In this document: in pieces, positions 2,275-20,744 of the stretch
Layout: every line of letters begins with the position of its first letter
Position numbering within the stretch: the first letter of the stretch is position 1
From: a virus
Direction: 5' to 3' (one strand)
Length of the DNA stretch: 20,744 bases
IMG/VR virus record: IMGVR_UViG_3300025138_000476
Span: 1 to 20,744 of that record
The notes under the pieces: generated by a model
Seen by the model: only the letters and a program-made list of their open reading frames with translations
Databases searched by the model: none
What the model was told of the DNA's origin: nothing
Translations under genes and position numbers: made by a program

Positions 2275-4364
2275 GCTTTTATTTGTTTGCTAAACATTCC
2301 TTTGTTACTATATCTTTTAACTAAAGGGGATGAGACCTTTAATTCTACTTTTGCTTTAATATATTTTTGAGAAGCCAACAAAGCTAATGATGAAGATATA
2401 CTAGCATCATATTTTGTTCTATTGTCTATCTCAAACCTACTCCAATCATCGAGTAAGGTATTAAAAAAACACCTTCCTATCTCACCTGTATTTGCATCGT
2501 AACCAACGTGGTCATATATATAGGTTGCTATAGCTTCTGCTTGAGCATTTATTACTGCAGCTCCAGAGCCAGGTATTCCTTTTGTTTTTTGTTTTCCTCT
2601 ACTCCACTCTGTATGTGTCATGTCAGGTCTATCCATTAAGTACTCGTAATAACCTCTGTTTTCAAAGTACTTTAGTATACCAACTTTGTTGTTCTCCACT
2701 AATATTTGACACCCATAAAATACACACATCTTAATCATGTCTTCGTAAAATATCTCCGCTTTAGGTGGTCTATTAATGTACTCACAAACAAATTGCATAG
2801 ACGCATCACTTCCCATGCTAAATTTATGAAAAACATGAGCAGCAGCATCAGATCTCCTACCATCAGTAGTGGTGTCATGATCATAAGGGTCGCAACCTGC
2901 AACCAAGCTGTCTGCTTTACCAGGAAATTTCTTACTAAACCTAGAAGAAATAATATTTTGATCTTGAGTTTCTGGAACCCAAGTAACTTCCCATCTACCT
3001 TTTCTGTGAGGTATCCACATAACTTCAGTATCACGTACTCCATTTTTCCAAACAAACTCACCCCTTGTTGTAGGAGTATTATTAACTTCGTTATAATCCA
3101 TCTGTTGATATATTCTTTCTACATCAAATATACAACTTTGTGTATCATTTCTAAAAGCCTCCTCCATAGTAAAGGGAAATTGTCTTTTAAATTCAGATAA
3201 AGCAGTAGTATCGTTTTTTAAAGCGTTTCTTCTATTTTGTATATAATCCTTAGCTCCAACCTCTATAGGCATATCATCAATACCCATTACTGATTTTTTT
3301 GGAGTGTCAACAACACTATACCCATACTCATCAATAAAACCTTCTAAGTTATCAAAGGCAGGTATAAATAATTTATACAAACCACTTTTAGTTCTACCGT
3401 TAAGATCTTTTTCATCAGTATTAGAGTCATAAAATATATCTTTAAACTCCGCACCACCATCTTGTTGTTTGTTAGCAGTAGATCCCATCATACATTTACC
3501 TACAACCTTTCTACCTAGAAGTAAACAAGTCTGAGTTACACTCCAATTTTTTTTTATAGAGTTTTGACCCGTCCACTTACCAGCCTCATCATGTACTAGA
3601 AGTTTAAGCTTCATACCATCATAGCTGTTATCAGAAGTATTCTTCCAGTCTATGGTAGAGTTTAAAGCTTCAGATTCCTCTATGTGTTTTTGATTTCTTG
3701 TTATCTTCTTAGCAGGCTCTCTAAATGCTAGCTCTACACGAGGATTACTAGAACCATCTTGTATAGGCTGAAAAAAGAAAGGGTAGTTACGATATATACG
3801 AACTACCTTATCAGTAAACATTGTCTTGGCATCTGAACCAGTTTTAGATAACAACCCAAAGTTACTGTCGTATACTTGAGTTGCTAAATTTACTATCTCA
3901 CCACTAGCCATATAAGAAAAACCACTACGTCTGTTTTTAAGAAAACACATACCGTAAGAGTTTTTATCTTTTTTGCACGCTTCCCAAAAAATAAAGAACG
4001 TTCTGTTAGCGTCTCTGTAATCAGGATAACCAACATCAATTTTACTCCACTGGATAAACATATAATGAGATCCAGTAATGTAGGTAGGAACACCGTTGTT
4101 ATAGAACCACAACCCGTCCCTTCTACGCCTAAATTCTTCGTCTATGTAATCAACATAGTCAGAACCGTTTTCTCTTGTTAAACCCTTTGGTATAGCTTGC
4201 CTTTTCCACATCTGTTGTTTCTTAGGCAGTCCGTAATAAAGTATATCTTTTTTATATCTAGGTTTCTTGGGTAGAACTATCTTTAAGTTATCAAACTCTA
4301 AGACCTCTCCTTCGTTACCCTCTATTAAATATACACTACTACTTTCTTGCATACCTTTCTGCAA
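2271..4364 (-). CDS. terL: Terminase large subunit (ATPase-nuclease)
   Basis: This is the 697-aa DNA-packaging motor, which docks on the portal, hydrolyses ATP to translocate DNA and cuts the concatemer. The N-terminal ATPase has a degenerate Walker A at about residues 142-150 (LKNRRSGFS), a Walker B at 255-260 (LLVHDE; D259, E260) and a coupling motif MMGSTAN at 292-298. The C-terminal RNase H-like nuclease shows its acidic triad in order: D492 in LVAGCDPYDHD, E557 in ILVENN, and D653 in TKYDASIS. Length fits the larger terminases of marine phages. A second in-frame ATG lies four codons in (4352), so the exact start is uncertain. The upstream gene overlaps by 26 nt and the portal start overlaps its stop. 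The Walker A lacks the canonical GKS/T lysine position but has arginines there, which is common in phage terminases. Confidence 0.95.
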   Translation of the reverse strand: MQKGMQESSSVYLIEGNEGEVLEFDNLKIVLPKKPRYKKDILYYGLPKKQQMWKRQAIPKGLTRENGSDYVDYIDEEFRRRRDGLWFYNNGVPTYITGSHYMFIQWSKIDVGYPDYRDANRTFFIFWEACKKDKNSYGMCFLKNRRSGFSYMASGEIVNLATQVYDSNFGLLSKTGSDAKTMFTDKVVRIYRNYPFFFQPIQDGSSNPRVELAFREPAKKITRNQKHIEESEALNSTIDWKNTSDNSYDGMKLKLLVHDEAGKWTGQNSIKKNWSVTQTCLLLGRKVVGKCMMGSTANKQQDGGAEFKDIFYDSNTDEKDLNGRTKSGLYKLFIPAFDNLEGFIDEYGYSVVDTPKKSVMGIDDMPIEVGAKDYIQNRRNALKNDTTALSEFKRQFPFTMEEAFRNDTQSCIFDVERIYQQMDYNEVNNTPTTRGEFVWKNGVRDTEVMWIPHRKGRWEVTWVPETQDQNIISSRFSKKFPGKADSLVAGCDPYDHDTTTDGRRSDAAAHVFHKFSMGSDASMQFVCEYINRPPKAEIFYEDMIKMCVFYGCQILVENNKVGILKYFENRGYYEYLMDRPDMTHTEWSRGKQKTKGIPGSGAAVINAQAEAIATYIYDHVGYDANTGEIGRCFFNTLLDDWSRFEIDNRTKYDASISSSLALLASQKYIKAKVELKVSSPLVKRYSNKGMFSKQIKA

Positions 4365-18764: not shown

Positions 18765-19151
18765 ATGGCAACAGTAACAACAAAATTAACACTAACTAGT
18801 ACAGACTTATTGTCTCAGTCGCTAAACCTTTCTTTAAGTAAAAGTATTACAGCGTCTCACACTACAGGTCTTGCTCGTGCACCTATTACTTCAACAGCTA
18901 TAGGGACGACATCTGGTCAAGTAACTATATACACAGCGGATGACTACGCAGCAACAGCTTATATCTATATCAAAAATACAGATACTACAGCTACAGACTA
19001 CATATATGTGTATACAGGATCTAACAACTTATTGAAACTTGGTGGTGGGGAGTTTGCTTTTATACCATCAATAGCTGATGATACTCTTAAAGCTTACGCT
19101 ACTACTAGCGGAACTATCGTAGAGTTTATGGTATTCGGTACAGATCAATAA
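18765..19151 (+). CDS. Small Thr/Ser-rich virion-like protein
   Basis: A 128-residue beta-rich protein, MATVTTKLTLTSTDLLSQSL at the start, with QVTIYTADDYAATAYIYIKN and DYIYVYTGSNNLLKLGGGEF strands near 50-97 and IVEFMVFGTDQ at the end. Similar short proteins are common beside fibre genes in marine phages; I read it as a probable structural protein but cannot name the family. It has its own promoter core upstream. Its stop overlaps the stop of the convergent HNH gene by 7 nt (19145-19151). No signal peptide or TM. Confidence 0.72.
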   Translation: MATVTTKLTLTSTDLLSQSLNLSLSKSITASHTTGLARAPITSTAIGTTSGQVTIYTADDYAATAYIYIKNTDTTATDYIYVYTGSNNLLKLGGGEFAFIPSIADDTLKAYATTSGTIVEFMVFGTDQ

Positions 19152-19516
19152 GATTTAGCGTACTGATCTCTTTTAATTTTCTTGCAACCTTCACATCGGC
19201 AGCCTTTTCTATAGGCTGTTGAGGAGGGGCAAGGTTTTCCAACCCTAGGTCTCGCAGCCTTGTAATTACAACTCTTATGCGAGAAAGCAATATTATCTAA
19301 ATCAAAGTACAGATCCGAAGGGTCTTTTGAGTGTAGCCAAGGAACCTTGTGCTCTATGCTCATATCCTTATAACTTTCTATTCTAGCGGCACAGTGAAAG
19401 CACCAGTCCATATCTAATTTCTTACCAAGGGAGAACAACAAAGCTTTGCCTAATCTATTTGACGCAGTGCCAGGGTCCATACCTAGCTGCCTTACTTTCT
19501 CATCCTTGATTCCCAT
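19145..19516 (-). CDS. HNH endonuclease
   Basis: A 123-residue nuclease. The N-terminal MGIKDEKVRQLGMDPGTASNR and LGKALLFSLGKKL are typical of free-standing phage HNH proteins. The core has CFHC at 39-42, SIEHKVPW with catalytic H56, DLDNIAFSH at 72-80 (N75 and H80 as the N and H of the motif), and KSCN with C83. A C-terminal Cys cluster (C96, C106, C108, C111 in KPCPS and GCRCEGC) probably binds a second zinc. It is convergent to the fibre operon, overlapping the neighbouring gene's stop by 7 nt, and reads away from the non-coding end. Such genes are often homing-type selfish nucleases, though small HNH proteins can assist packaging; being far from the terminase favours homing. The leader is A-rich with no promoter core seen. 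Confidence 0.85.
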   Translation of the reverse strand: MGIKDEKVRQLGMDPGTASNRLGKALLFSLGKKLDMDWCFHCAARIESYKDMSIEHKVPWLHSKDPSDLYFDLDNIAFSHKSCNYKAARPRVGKPCPSSTAYRKGCRCEGCKKIKRDQYAKSY

Positions 19517-19630
19517 GATTAACTTTTTTGCAAGTTAAAAAATTTTCTGAGAAATAAAAAGGTGGGGGGTTATATAATTAATCTGCGTGCGTGATTCCAT
19601 TCCCGAAACCGAAATCCGAAAATGGTGTGG

Positions 19631-19671
19631 GTCGATTTAAAATTCAATGTATGCATTGTAAATGTCGATTT
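19631..19671. repeat. GTCGATTT direct repeats flanking a palindrome
   Basis: GTCGATTT occurs at 19631-19638 and 19664-19671. Between them is CAATG-TATG-CATTG (19645-19658), a 5-bp dyad with a 4-nt loop. The symmetric layout suggests a protein-binding site rather than chance. Confidence 0.5.
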
Positions 19672-19758
19672 CTATTTATGACCTACTCTATCTACTACTT
19701 GCAACTCAGGTGCGTTTAATAATGTATACACCCCTACATGATGATGGTCAAAAGAATT

Positions 19759-19808
19759 CAATGCAATGAATAGTACTTTCTAGCTGACAAATACAATGCA
19801 ATGAATAG
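19759..19808. repeat. 15-bp direct repeat CAATGCAATGAATAG
   Basis: Perfect copies at 19759-19773 and 19794-19808, 35 bp start to start. Each contains CAATG twice; CAATG also forms the palindrome at 19645-19658, so the interval is enriched for this pentamer (iteron-like). Confidence 0.75.
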
Positions 19809-20054
19809 CATATTTAAACCATGTAAACCATACACCTTACTAATGGCTATCATTAAGCCCTCTAATGCATTATCTACCTTCTATAGTACCAATACACCTA
19901 AAATAATAGTTCGTACAATCCCTTTGATGGCAAGGGCTGTAGGGAGGGAGGGAGTAATGCACCCTTTAAAATACCATATCCCAAACCCCCACAACTACTG
20001 ATTAAAAAAATTACACCTCTGTATCCCTCGCTATCAGTACATTTGTTAAATTAG

Positions 20055-20100
20055 TGTAAAAAAACTTTACAAAAGATTAGGATTGTAAAATATCTTTACA
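20055..20100. promoter_or_regulatory. Twin operators TGTAAA-N5-TTTACA
   Basis: Two perfect 6-bp dyads with identical 5-nt spacers lie at 20055-20071 and 20084-20100, 29 bp centre to centre (about 2.75 helical turns). The second covers the -33 to -7 spacer of the promoter at 20102-20109. This is the classic geometry for a dimeric regulator that represses by blocking RNA polymerase. The likeliest partner in this window is the winged-helix protein at 10149-10475, but no such dyad is seen near its own promoter. Confidence 0.65.
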
Positions 20101-20109
20101 TTATATTTG
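20083..20109 (+). promoter_or_regulatory. Promoter of the large non-coding RNA
   Basis: TATATTTG (20102-20109) matches TAnnTTTG, with TTG at 20083-20085 sixteen bases upstream as a -33 element. Predicted start is around 20113-20116, exactly where the first hairpin of the RNA begins. Confidence 0.65.
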
Positions 20110-20113
20110 CCTT

Positions 20114-20744
20114 GCAGTTGAGATAATAACTGCATCGTTCTTTACATACTGATTCATATACATACACATTGAGGCAATGGCAATCCGTAAGACCATTCTT
20201 TATCTAACAAGAAAATCGCCCTATGATATATGAACATACCTTTAGCTTGATTGAGGGTAGTAAGTCTTAATAACGATACATGGAAGTAGCATTGCCTACC
20301 TAAATGTATTAGAGCAATAATTCAATCAGCGTTTGTCAGTATCGAATCAACTGAACGGAAACTATCGCCGACAACTAGATAGGCTTGGGCAAGTCAATAG
20401 ACTGCCAATACAAGTTAGGTAAAGCACTACAGAGGATGTAAGAAATCCGTACCGATTAATGTACTAGGAAAGTCTATCAGAGGGGACGCTGATGATAGGT
20501 AGTAAGCAATCGAAGTACTACCTTGACAAGGCGTGAGAGTAAGTGACATATGCTCTGAAGCAAGATAGACAACACGCTAAGGTTTGTTAGAGAGACCATG
20601 TTGGGCGTGATTTAATACAACTAAAAAACTATCTGATTTGATGGGACAATGCAAGGGTTACTCGCAGTAACTTAATATGGTGGTGCTTTAGCCTACCTTG
20701 TAAAATCTCTTTATGGGAATGTATTGGATGCCTAAATATATATA
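20114..20744 (+). ncRNA. Large structured non-coding RNA candidate (3' end beyond window)
   Basis: More than 630 nt with no ORF above background, more GC-rich (one sampled 60-nt line is 45%) than the AT-rich interval before it. Complementary segments I can verify: 20114-20119 with 20128-20133; 20248-20254 with 20322-20328, enclosing 20256-20260 with 20296-20300; 20336-20340 with 20350-20354; 20362-20366 with 20378-20382; then a domain closed by an 8-bp stem 20405-20412 with 20720-20727. Inside it are GGAT/ATCC 20434-20448, ATCAG/CTGAT 20476-20493, GGTAGTA/TACTACC 20498-20522, GCGTG/CACGC 20531-20577, and TGCAAGG/CCTTGTA 20650-20702 holding a 6-bp CGC-triloop hairpin 20657-20671. Alternative pairings (20173-20179 with 20290-20296; 20276-20281 with 20304-20309) may be pseudoknots. 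Size and phage context fit ornate RNAs such as GOLLD or ROOL; class membership is unproven. It is not a tRNA, tmRNA, RNase P RNA or group I/II intron by motif. Confidence 0.65.

Follow-up and report, generated by a model that had tools for sequence, protein, structure and literature searches.

A large, intricately folded noncoding RNA behind an rRNA-type leader at the head of a phage early operon

Comparative sequence analysis confirms that a conserved noncoding RNA with an intricate fold is encoded at the 3' end of the window (20102-20744). The window is the whole stretch of DNA analyzed, a 20,744-base contig of a marine phage (IMG/VR record) whose ends are not closed; the RNA region covers about 600 bases and extends beyond the contig end. 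Among named phages, the large terminase of the window is closest to those of Flavobacteriia phages (Maribacter, Flavobacterium and Cellulophaga), with 36-48% identity. We think it likely that the region specifies a stable large noncoding RNA produced by a unit resembling an rRNA operon, which sits as a cassette between an early promoter and the first early gene, and that the RNA is released and acts in trans. The parts of the unit and its neighbor gene are listed in Table 1.

Table 1. Features of the RNA unit and its neighbor in the window
Feature	Position	Strand	Remarks
Divergent neighbor gene	19145..19516	-	small zinc-cysteine/HNH-type protein, 123 aa
Bacteroidota-type promoter	20083..20109	+	TTG + TATATTTG; two GTAAA-n-TTTAC palindromes before it
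5' hairpin at RNA start	20113..20134	+	position of boxB in rrn leaders
boxA-like element GTTCTTTACA	20137..20146	+	same place in relatives; consensus match
5' domain, helices 1-7	20137..20315	+	alignment and covariation
Core A, helices 8-21	20320..20642	+	closed by helix 8; alignment and covariation
3' three-way-junction domain	20648..20704	+	common to core-A and core-B RNAs; other hairpin domains in some relatives
5' part of tRNA-like element (GGGAATG TA...)	20715..20744	+	aligns with L161 3390-3419; cut by contig end

Folded structure and covariation

An earlier note on this DNA had proposed a large structured phage RNA, possibly of a new class, in a region of raised GC content that is free of ORFs. 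There is indeed no ORF of at least 50 aa on either strand within 20102-20744; the GC content is raised only mildly, at 0.35-0.43 against 0.31-0.39 just upstream of the RNA region. When folded as a single sequence, the window RNA scores modestly better than shuffles (energy z of -2.2), and the structural claim therefore needed comparison with relatives. Searches with the terminase, with the divergent HNH-type neighbor and with DNA patterns derived from conserved blocks yielded members of the same phage group. Their alignment features strongly conserved unpaired blocks and hairpins that vary in length, with no shared reading frame and no coding-type signal.

The RNAalifold consensus of 12 sequences contains 128 pairs, with 97.5% of cells paired. 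Forty of the 128 pairs have changed on both sides, compared with a mean of 16.5 in shuffles (0/500 reach 40) and 1-6 in slid-partner controls; the structure was derived from the same alignment, so that the slid control leans in its favor, but the gap is large nonetheless. This covariation, together with the lack of a coding signal and of a credible Rfam match, strongly supports the proposed structured RNA and its possible status as a new class. The nested set of stems that had been drawn is likewise borne out by the comparison of the 12 sequences and not by the window fold alone. A decayed coding sequence or chance folding, to which the modest single-sequence z of the window would lend itself, has practically no probability left, given the compensatory changes across 12 relatives, the hairpin-length indels and the absence of a shared ORF; covariation already refutes it.

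Helix 8 corresponds to the closing stem of 8 bp described earlier. It joins 20320-20329 to 20633-20642 with nine pairs in 12/12 sequences, and its changes are one-sided (G-U type) only. An alternative 10-bp pairing is available between the 3' strand of helix 8 (UGAUUYGAUG, alignment A2 columns 613-622) and the loop of helix 9 (UAUCGAAUCA, columns 310-319). It is kept less well than helix 8 and was set aside as the main fold; from the sequences, the complementarity is a possible switch or pseudoknot. The three-way-junction element suggested from the window is recovered in its own alignment of six sequences, where 6/18 pairs show compensatory change.

Promoter and rRNA-type 5' leader

The promoter is of the Bacteroidota type that had been claimed, with TATATTTG at 20102-20109 and TTG at 20083-20085, and TAnnTTTG stands at the same place in most RNA-bearing relatives. 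The hairpin behind it is found in 16/16 RNAs folded, in which the sequence changes and the pairing is kept (UGCAGUU/AACUGCA, GAGCAGU/ACUGCUC, ACAAUGAUU/AAUCGUUGU). It is followed in the RNA-bearing relatives by GTTCTTTnACAtAyTGA, of which GTTCTTTaACA is the boxA part. The boxA consensus GYTCTTTAANA (PMC5725501) is matched exactly in 4/12 type-A relatives, the rest agree with it at 9-10 of the 11 positions, and the element never changes place; the boxA of the window is one A short. For a random 60-nt window, the chance of scoring at least 10 is 1%, and that of scoring 11 is 0.14%.

The leaders of rrn operons have boxB, then boxA and then boxC shortly after the promoter, and what boxA does there has been described (PMC10250234). 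The phage unit has the order of an rrn-type antitermination leader, a hairpin and then boxA just behind the promoter. For comparison, six Bacteroidota 16S leaders from plasmid-collection records were inspected. Four of them (Rufibacter, Persicobacter, Hymenobacter and Aureibacter) contain GTTCTTTGA at 144-186 nt before the conserved 16S marker motif, with a hairpin directly in front. The Flavobacterium leader carries the variant GTTCCTGCAGACATATTGAA, and no clear boxA is seen in that of Chryseobacterium; by the pattern used, 2/6 leaders inspected are without a clear boxA. The phage leader thus resembles the boxB-boxA leaders of Bacteroidota rRNA in its succession of a promoter ending in TTTG, a hairpin and GTTCTTT(G/A)A before a long untranslated structured RNA. 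Unlike a Bacteroidota rRNA operon, the unit is phage-borne, its RNA is not rRNA (no Rfam match) and protein genes lie behind it.

Under the reading that we favor, a strong early promoter would start the unit and boxA would bind host Nus factors (NusB-S10 and partners). The Nus-bound polymerase would be Rho-resistant, and the roughly 600 untranslated bases as well as the early genes behind them could be transcribed. Another explanation is that the RNA is a decoy that lowers host rRNA synthesis by sequestering NusB/S10 or other ribosome-assembly proteins of the host on its boxA or its folded domains. The rRNA-type leader is compatible with this, as is helix 1, which pairs the boxA bases themselves (20137-20141 with 20311-20315), so that access to boxA could be regulated. 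A boxA that protects in cis against Rho accounts for the same facts more simply, however, and we consider a decoy rather improbable.

Several repeats lie upstream of the leader. One or two GTAAA-n-TTTAC palindromes are present at 20050-20101 of the window and at the equivalent place in L124, L146, L147 and L137, each just before a TAnnTTTG-like box, and such palindromes occur in RNA-less relatives too. Palindromes and boxes are possibly tandem early promoters with an operator. Farther upstream, ACAATGCAATGAATAG motifs are repeated in the intergenic region before the promoter (window 19758-19811), as they are in L126. A segment just upstream of the HNH-type gene (window 19524-19677, AGAAATAAAAAGGTGGGGGGTTATATAATT...) shows good conservation in nearly all relatives and is found twice in L133.

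Distribution, modules and 3' ends

The RNA or a core-swapped version of it is found in 17 further viral contigs, where it is flanked by the divergent HNH-type gene and the first early gene; this number takes in two near-identical copies, one partial copy and four contigs with a different core. Most relatives are without the RNA, which is therefore not essential for the phage group. Cultured phage genomes searched by DNA similarity with the window and L124 yielded no homologues. Among the pattern matches, L162 and L163 (genome contigs matching a core pattern) are in unrelated bacteria and are taken as chance, and the viral matches L139-L142 and L144, all to one pattern, are unrelated sequence on reading and were discarded. 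A link between the RNA and the HNH-type gene was also rejected: the gene is conserved in many relatives both with and without the RNA, most of those that have it are RNA-less, and it is therefore not tied to the RNA.

The unit is modular. Four contigs (L136, L157, L158 and L159) have a type-B core, with the leader kind and 3' end of core-A RNAs. When scanned over four core-A RNAs (that of the window and three others), all of which were in its training set, covariance model R1 (20320-20468) scores 161-180 bits. The core-A covariance model finds no match in type-B RNAs or in RNA-less relatives, and the two cores are therefore either different or related beyond detection. The 3' hairpin domain is exchanged as well: its three-way-junction form is combined with either core, and a different form is shared by L146 (core A) and L157 (core B). 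Three RNA-less relatives have an empty site, in which the promoter (AATATTTG) is directly joined to the early mRNA leader CAACATCAATCA...ATG and both hairpin and boxA are absent. RNA, leader and 3' element therefore look like one removable cassette.

At the 3' end of the RNA, the twister-P1 model (Rfam RF03160) matches over its full length in 14/15 RNA-bearing records and in 0/35 records without the RNA (50 whole records screened, many of which are fragments). The scores of 39.5-44.9 bits (E 1e-8 to 1e-11 per record) are below the Rfam gathering score of 67.2. All 14 copies contain the U-A cleavage step and the conserved UAA, CAAG, UAAA and GAG nucleotides. With the published twister topology (PMC6154101), P1, P2, P4 and the pseudoknots T1 (L1-L4) and T2 (L2-L4) are kept, with 99.5% of cells paired. 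Compensatory changes are seen in P1, P2, P4 and T1, and T2 is invariant among the relatives. In T1, the CCC/GGG of the Rfam consensus is replaced by UAC/GUA or UGC/GCA, and in T2 its GC/GC is replaced by AC/GU; pairing is retained in each case. Judged by its sequence, the 3' element of the relatives is a probable twister ribozyme for which self-cleavage is predicted. It differs from type P1 as described in RF03160 in being a short form without P3, located at the 3' end of a large RNA; the window contig, as far as it goes, contains none (no match at E<=1). After the predicted cleavage, the RNAs of L147, L150 and L152 would end in ...CCUCCUUU, which resembles the anti-Shine-Dalgarno end of 16S rRNA. 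This likeness may be due solely to the P1 stem of the twister.

The 15th RNA-bearing record, L161, has no twister and carries a tRNA-like element at the same spot (3390-3541). The element features a GGGAAU/AUUCCC acceptor pairing, a 5-bp T-arm (AGUGG-UUCGAUU-CCACU, loop TTCGATT) and the 3' end AAUUCCC. A scan for T-arm plus acceptor pairing gives five matches in 3.8 Mb, of which four are tRNA genes by reading and the fifth is the L161 element; none of 20,000 shuffles matches. ARAGORN calls the element neither tRNA nor tmRNA, and folded as a whole it does no better than shuffles (z -0.9). It is complete in one contig only, L161; the alignment of its 5' part with the end of the window predicts an RNase P site between 20714 and 20715, at the 5' end of the element. 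In the MALAT1-mascRNA system, RNase P generates the 3' end of the RNA by cleaving just upstream of a tRNA-like element. The phage arrangement is similar in that a tRNA-like element stands directly behind a long noncoding RNA, and differs in that the RNA belongs to a phage and a ribozyme can take the place of the element.

In the trans-acting reading, the twister would cut itself at the U-A step, or host RNase P would cut before the tRNA-like element. Either cut would release the RNA, at an expected length of about 580-640 nt, and leave the early mRNA with a short leader; the free RNA could then have a structural or binding role in trans. A rival reading is an RNA that works in cis only. It would be a leader that confers processivity on the polymerase, as the put RNAs of phage HK022 do, or that regulates the first early gene, with the ribozyme merely trimming the mRNA. 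Its place directly behind the early promoter and ahead of the early operon, together with boxA, is what such a leader would show. However, a boxA leader needs tens of bases and not 600 covarying ones, the predicted cut separates the RNA from the mRNA, and relatives that lack the RNA have retained early genes and a promoter of this kind. We regard a purely cis-acting role as unlikely.

Comparable units are seen in cultured Cellulophaga phages. In Calle_1, 1.7 kb with no annotated genes lie directly before gp082 and contain two tandem promoter-hairpin-boxA leaders, an arrangement that recalls rrn P1-P2; in Calle_1 and phi38:1 the leader hairpin stands behind TACATTTG. The RNA behind the second Calle_1 leader has a 634-nt fold with a z of -4.0 relative to shuffles. 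Its phi38:1 homologue is 93% identical and keeps all 169 predicted pairs, seven of which have changed on both sides. By these sequence comparisons, both phages carry an RNA that is missing from the annotation, differs in sequence and has a leader of the same kind. A search for core A in Calle_1 gave nothing credible; since the RNA is not recognizably core A by sequence, it is a counterpart and not a proven homologue. There are tRNAs near the RNA in both phages. In addition, an unannotated tRNA-like element, seemingly without a D-arm, lies behind gp082 at 2965-3026 of Calle_1 (L260; GGTAATT...GTGG-TTCGATT-CCAC...AATTGCC), and the annotated gp057 and gp058 inside the structured RNA of phi38:1 (L261, 2834-3251) look like spurious calls. 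The cultured relatives MW202828, Maribacter phage Panino and elemoF have neither a twister match nor a convincing promoter-hairpin-boxA leader.

Relation to known large RNAs and proposed role

No Rfam family reaches its gathering score in the window, and no match to any family is credible. The RAGATH-33 model (RF03102) gives 22.2 bits at 20383-20499 (E 0.03-0.07, gathering score 120.4); the match is not reproduced in relatives, including those that are better conserved, and is probably due to chance. The earlier note had suggested a divergent GOLLD or ROOL and a search with covariance models. The GOLLD, ROOL and OLE models find no match in the window at E<=10 or in eight relatives at E<=5, and that assignment is not supported. 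Nor are there tRNA genes in the window or in the 17 loci scanned; nearby tRNAs are common, if not strict, for GOLLD and ROOL.

The RNA shares with GOLLD, ROOL and OLE a large size (about 600 nt or more) and an intricate noncoding fold, and with GOLLD and ROOL its residence in phages or prophages and its variable modules. It is set apart from all three by the lack of a covariance-model match, the boxA leader, the twister or tRNA-like 3' end and the early-operon location. GOLLD and ROOL form RNA-only nanocages (PMC12286853), and the present RNA could be a cage-forming member of that group, diverged beyond recognition, that builds homo-oligomers in infected cells. The similar size, phage location, many junctions and modular ends would fit. 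Even at loose thresholds, however, no model matches, and the context differs, being the head of an early operon with no tRNA island in the window; we give this possibility a low probability.

The released, trans-acting RNA thus remains the reading that we prefer. A more speculative proposal, which we put forward tentatively and which may well be wrong, is that the phage has copied the plan of the rRNA operon. The large RNA would then act on the ribosome-making or transcription machinery of the host, or form an RNA assembly of its own, with the twister and the tRNA-like element as interchangeable makers of its 3' end. To our knowledge, no function has been assigned to large phage RNAs such as GOLLD and ROOL.

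The reason for the presence of self-cleaving ribozymes close to phage genes has been stated to be unknown (PMC10085705). The position of the ribozyme described here suggests a plain role, namely to form the 3' terminus of a large noncoding RNA and detach it from the mRNA that follows. Where other phages have a tRNA-like element in its place, that element would solve this problem independently. The rRNA-type boxA leader, in turn, suggests a way in which a long untranslated phage RNA could be transcribed in spite of Rho. With phi38:1 and Calle_1 in culture, units of this kind are open to experiment.
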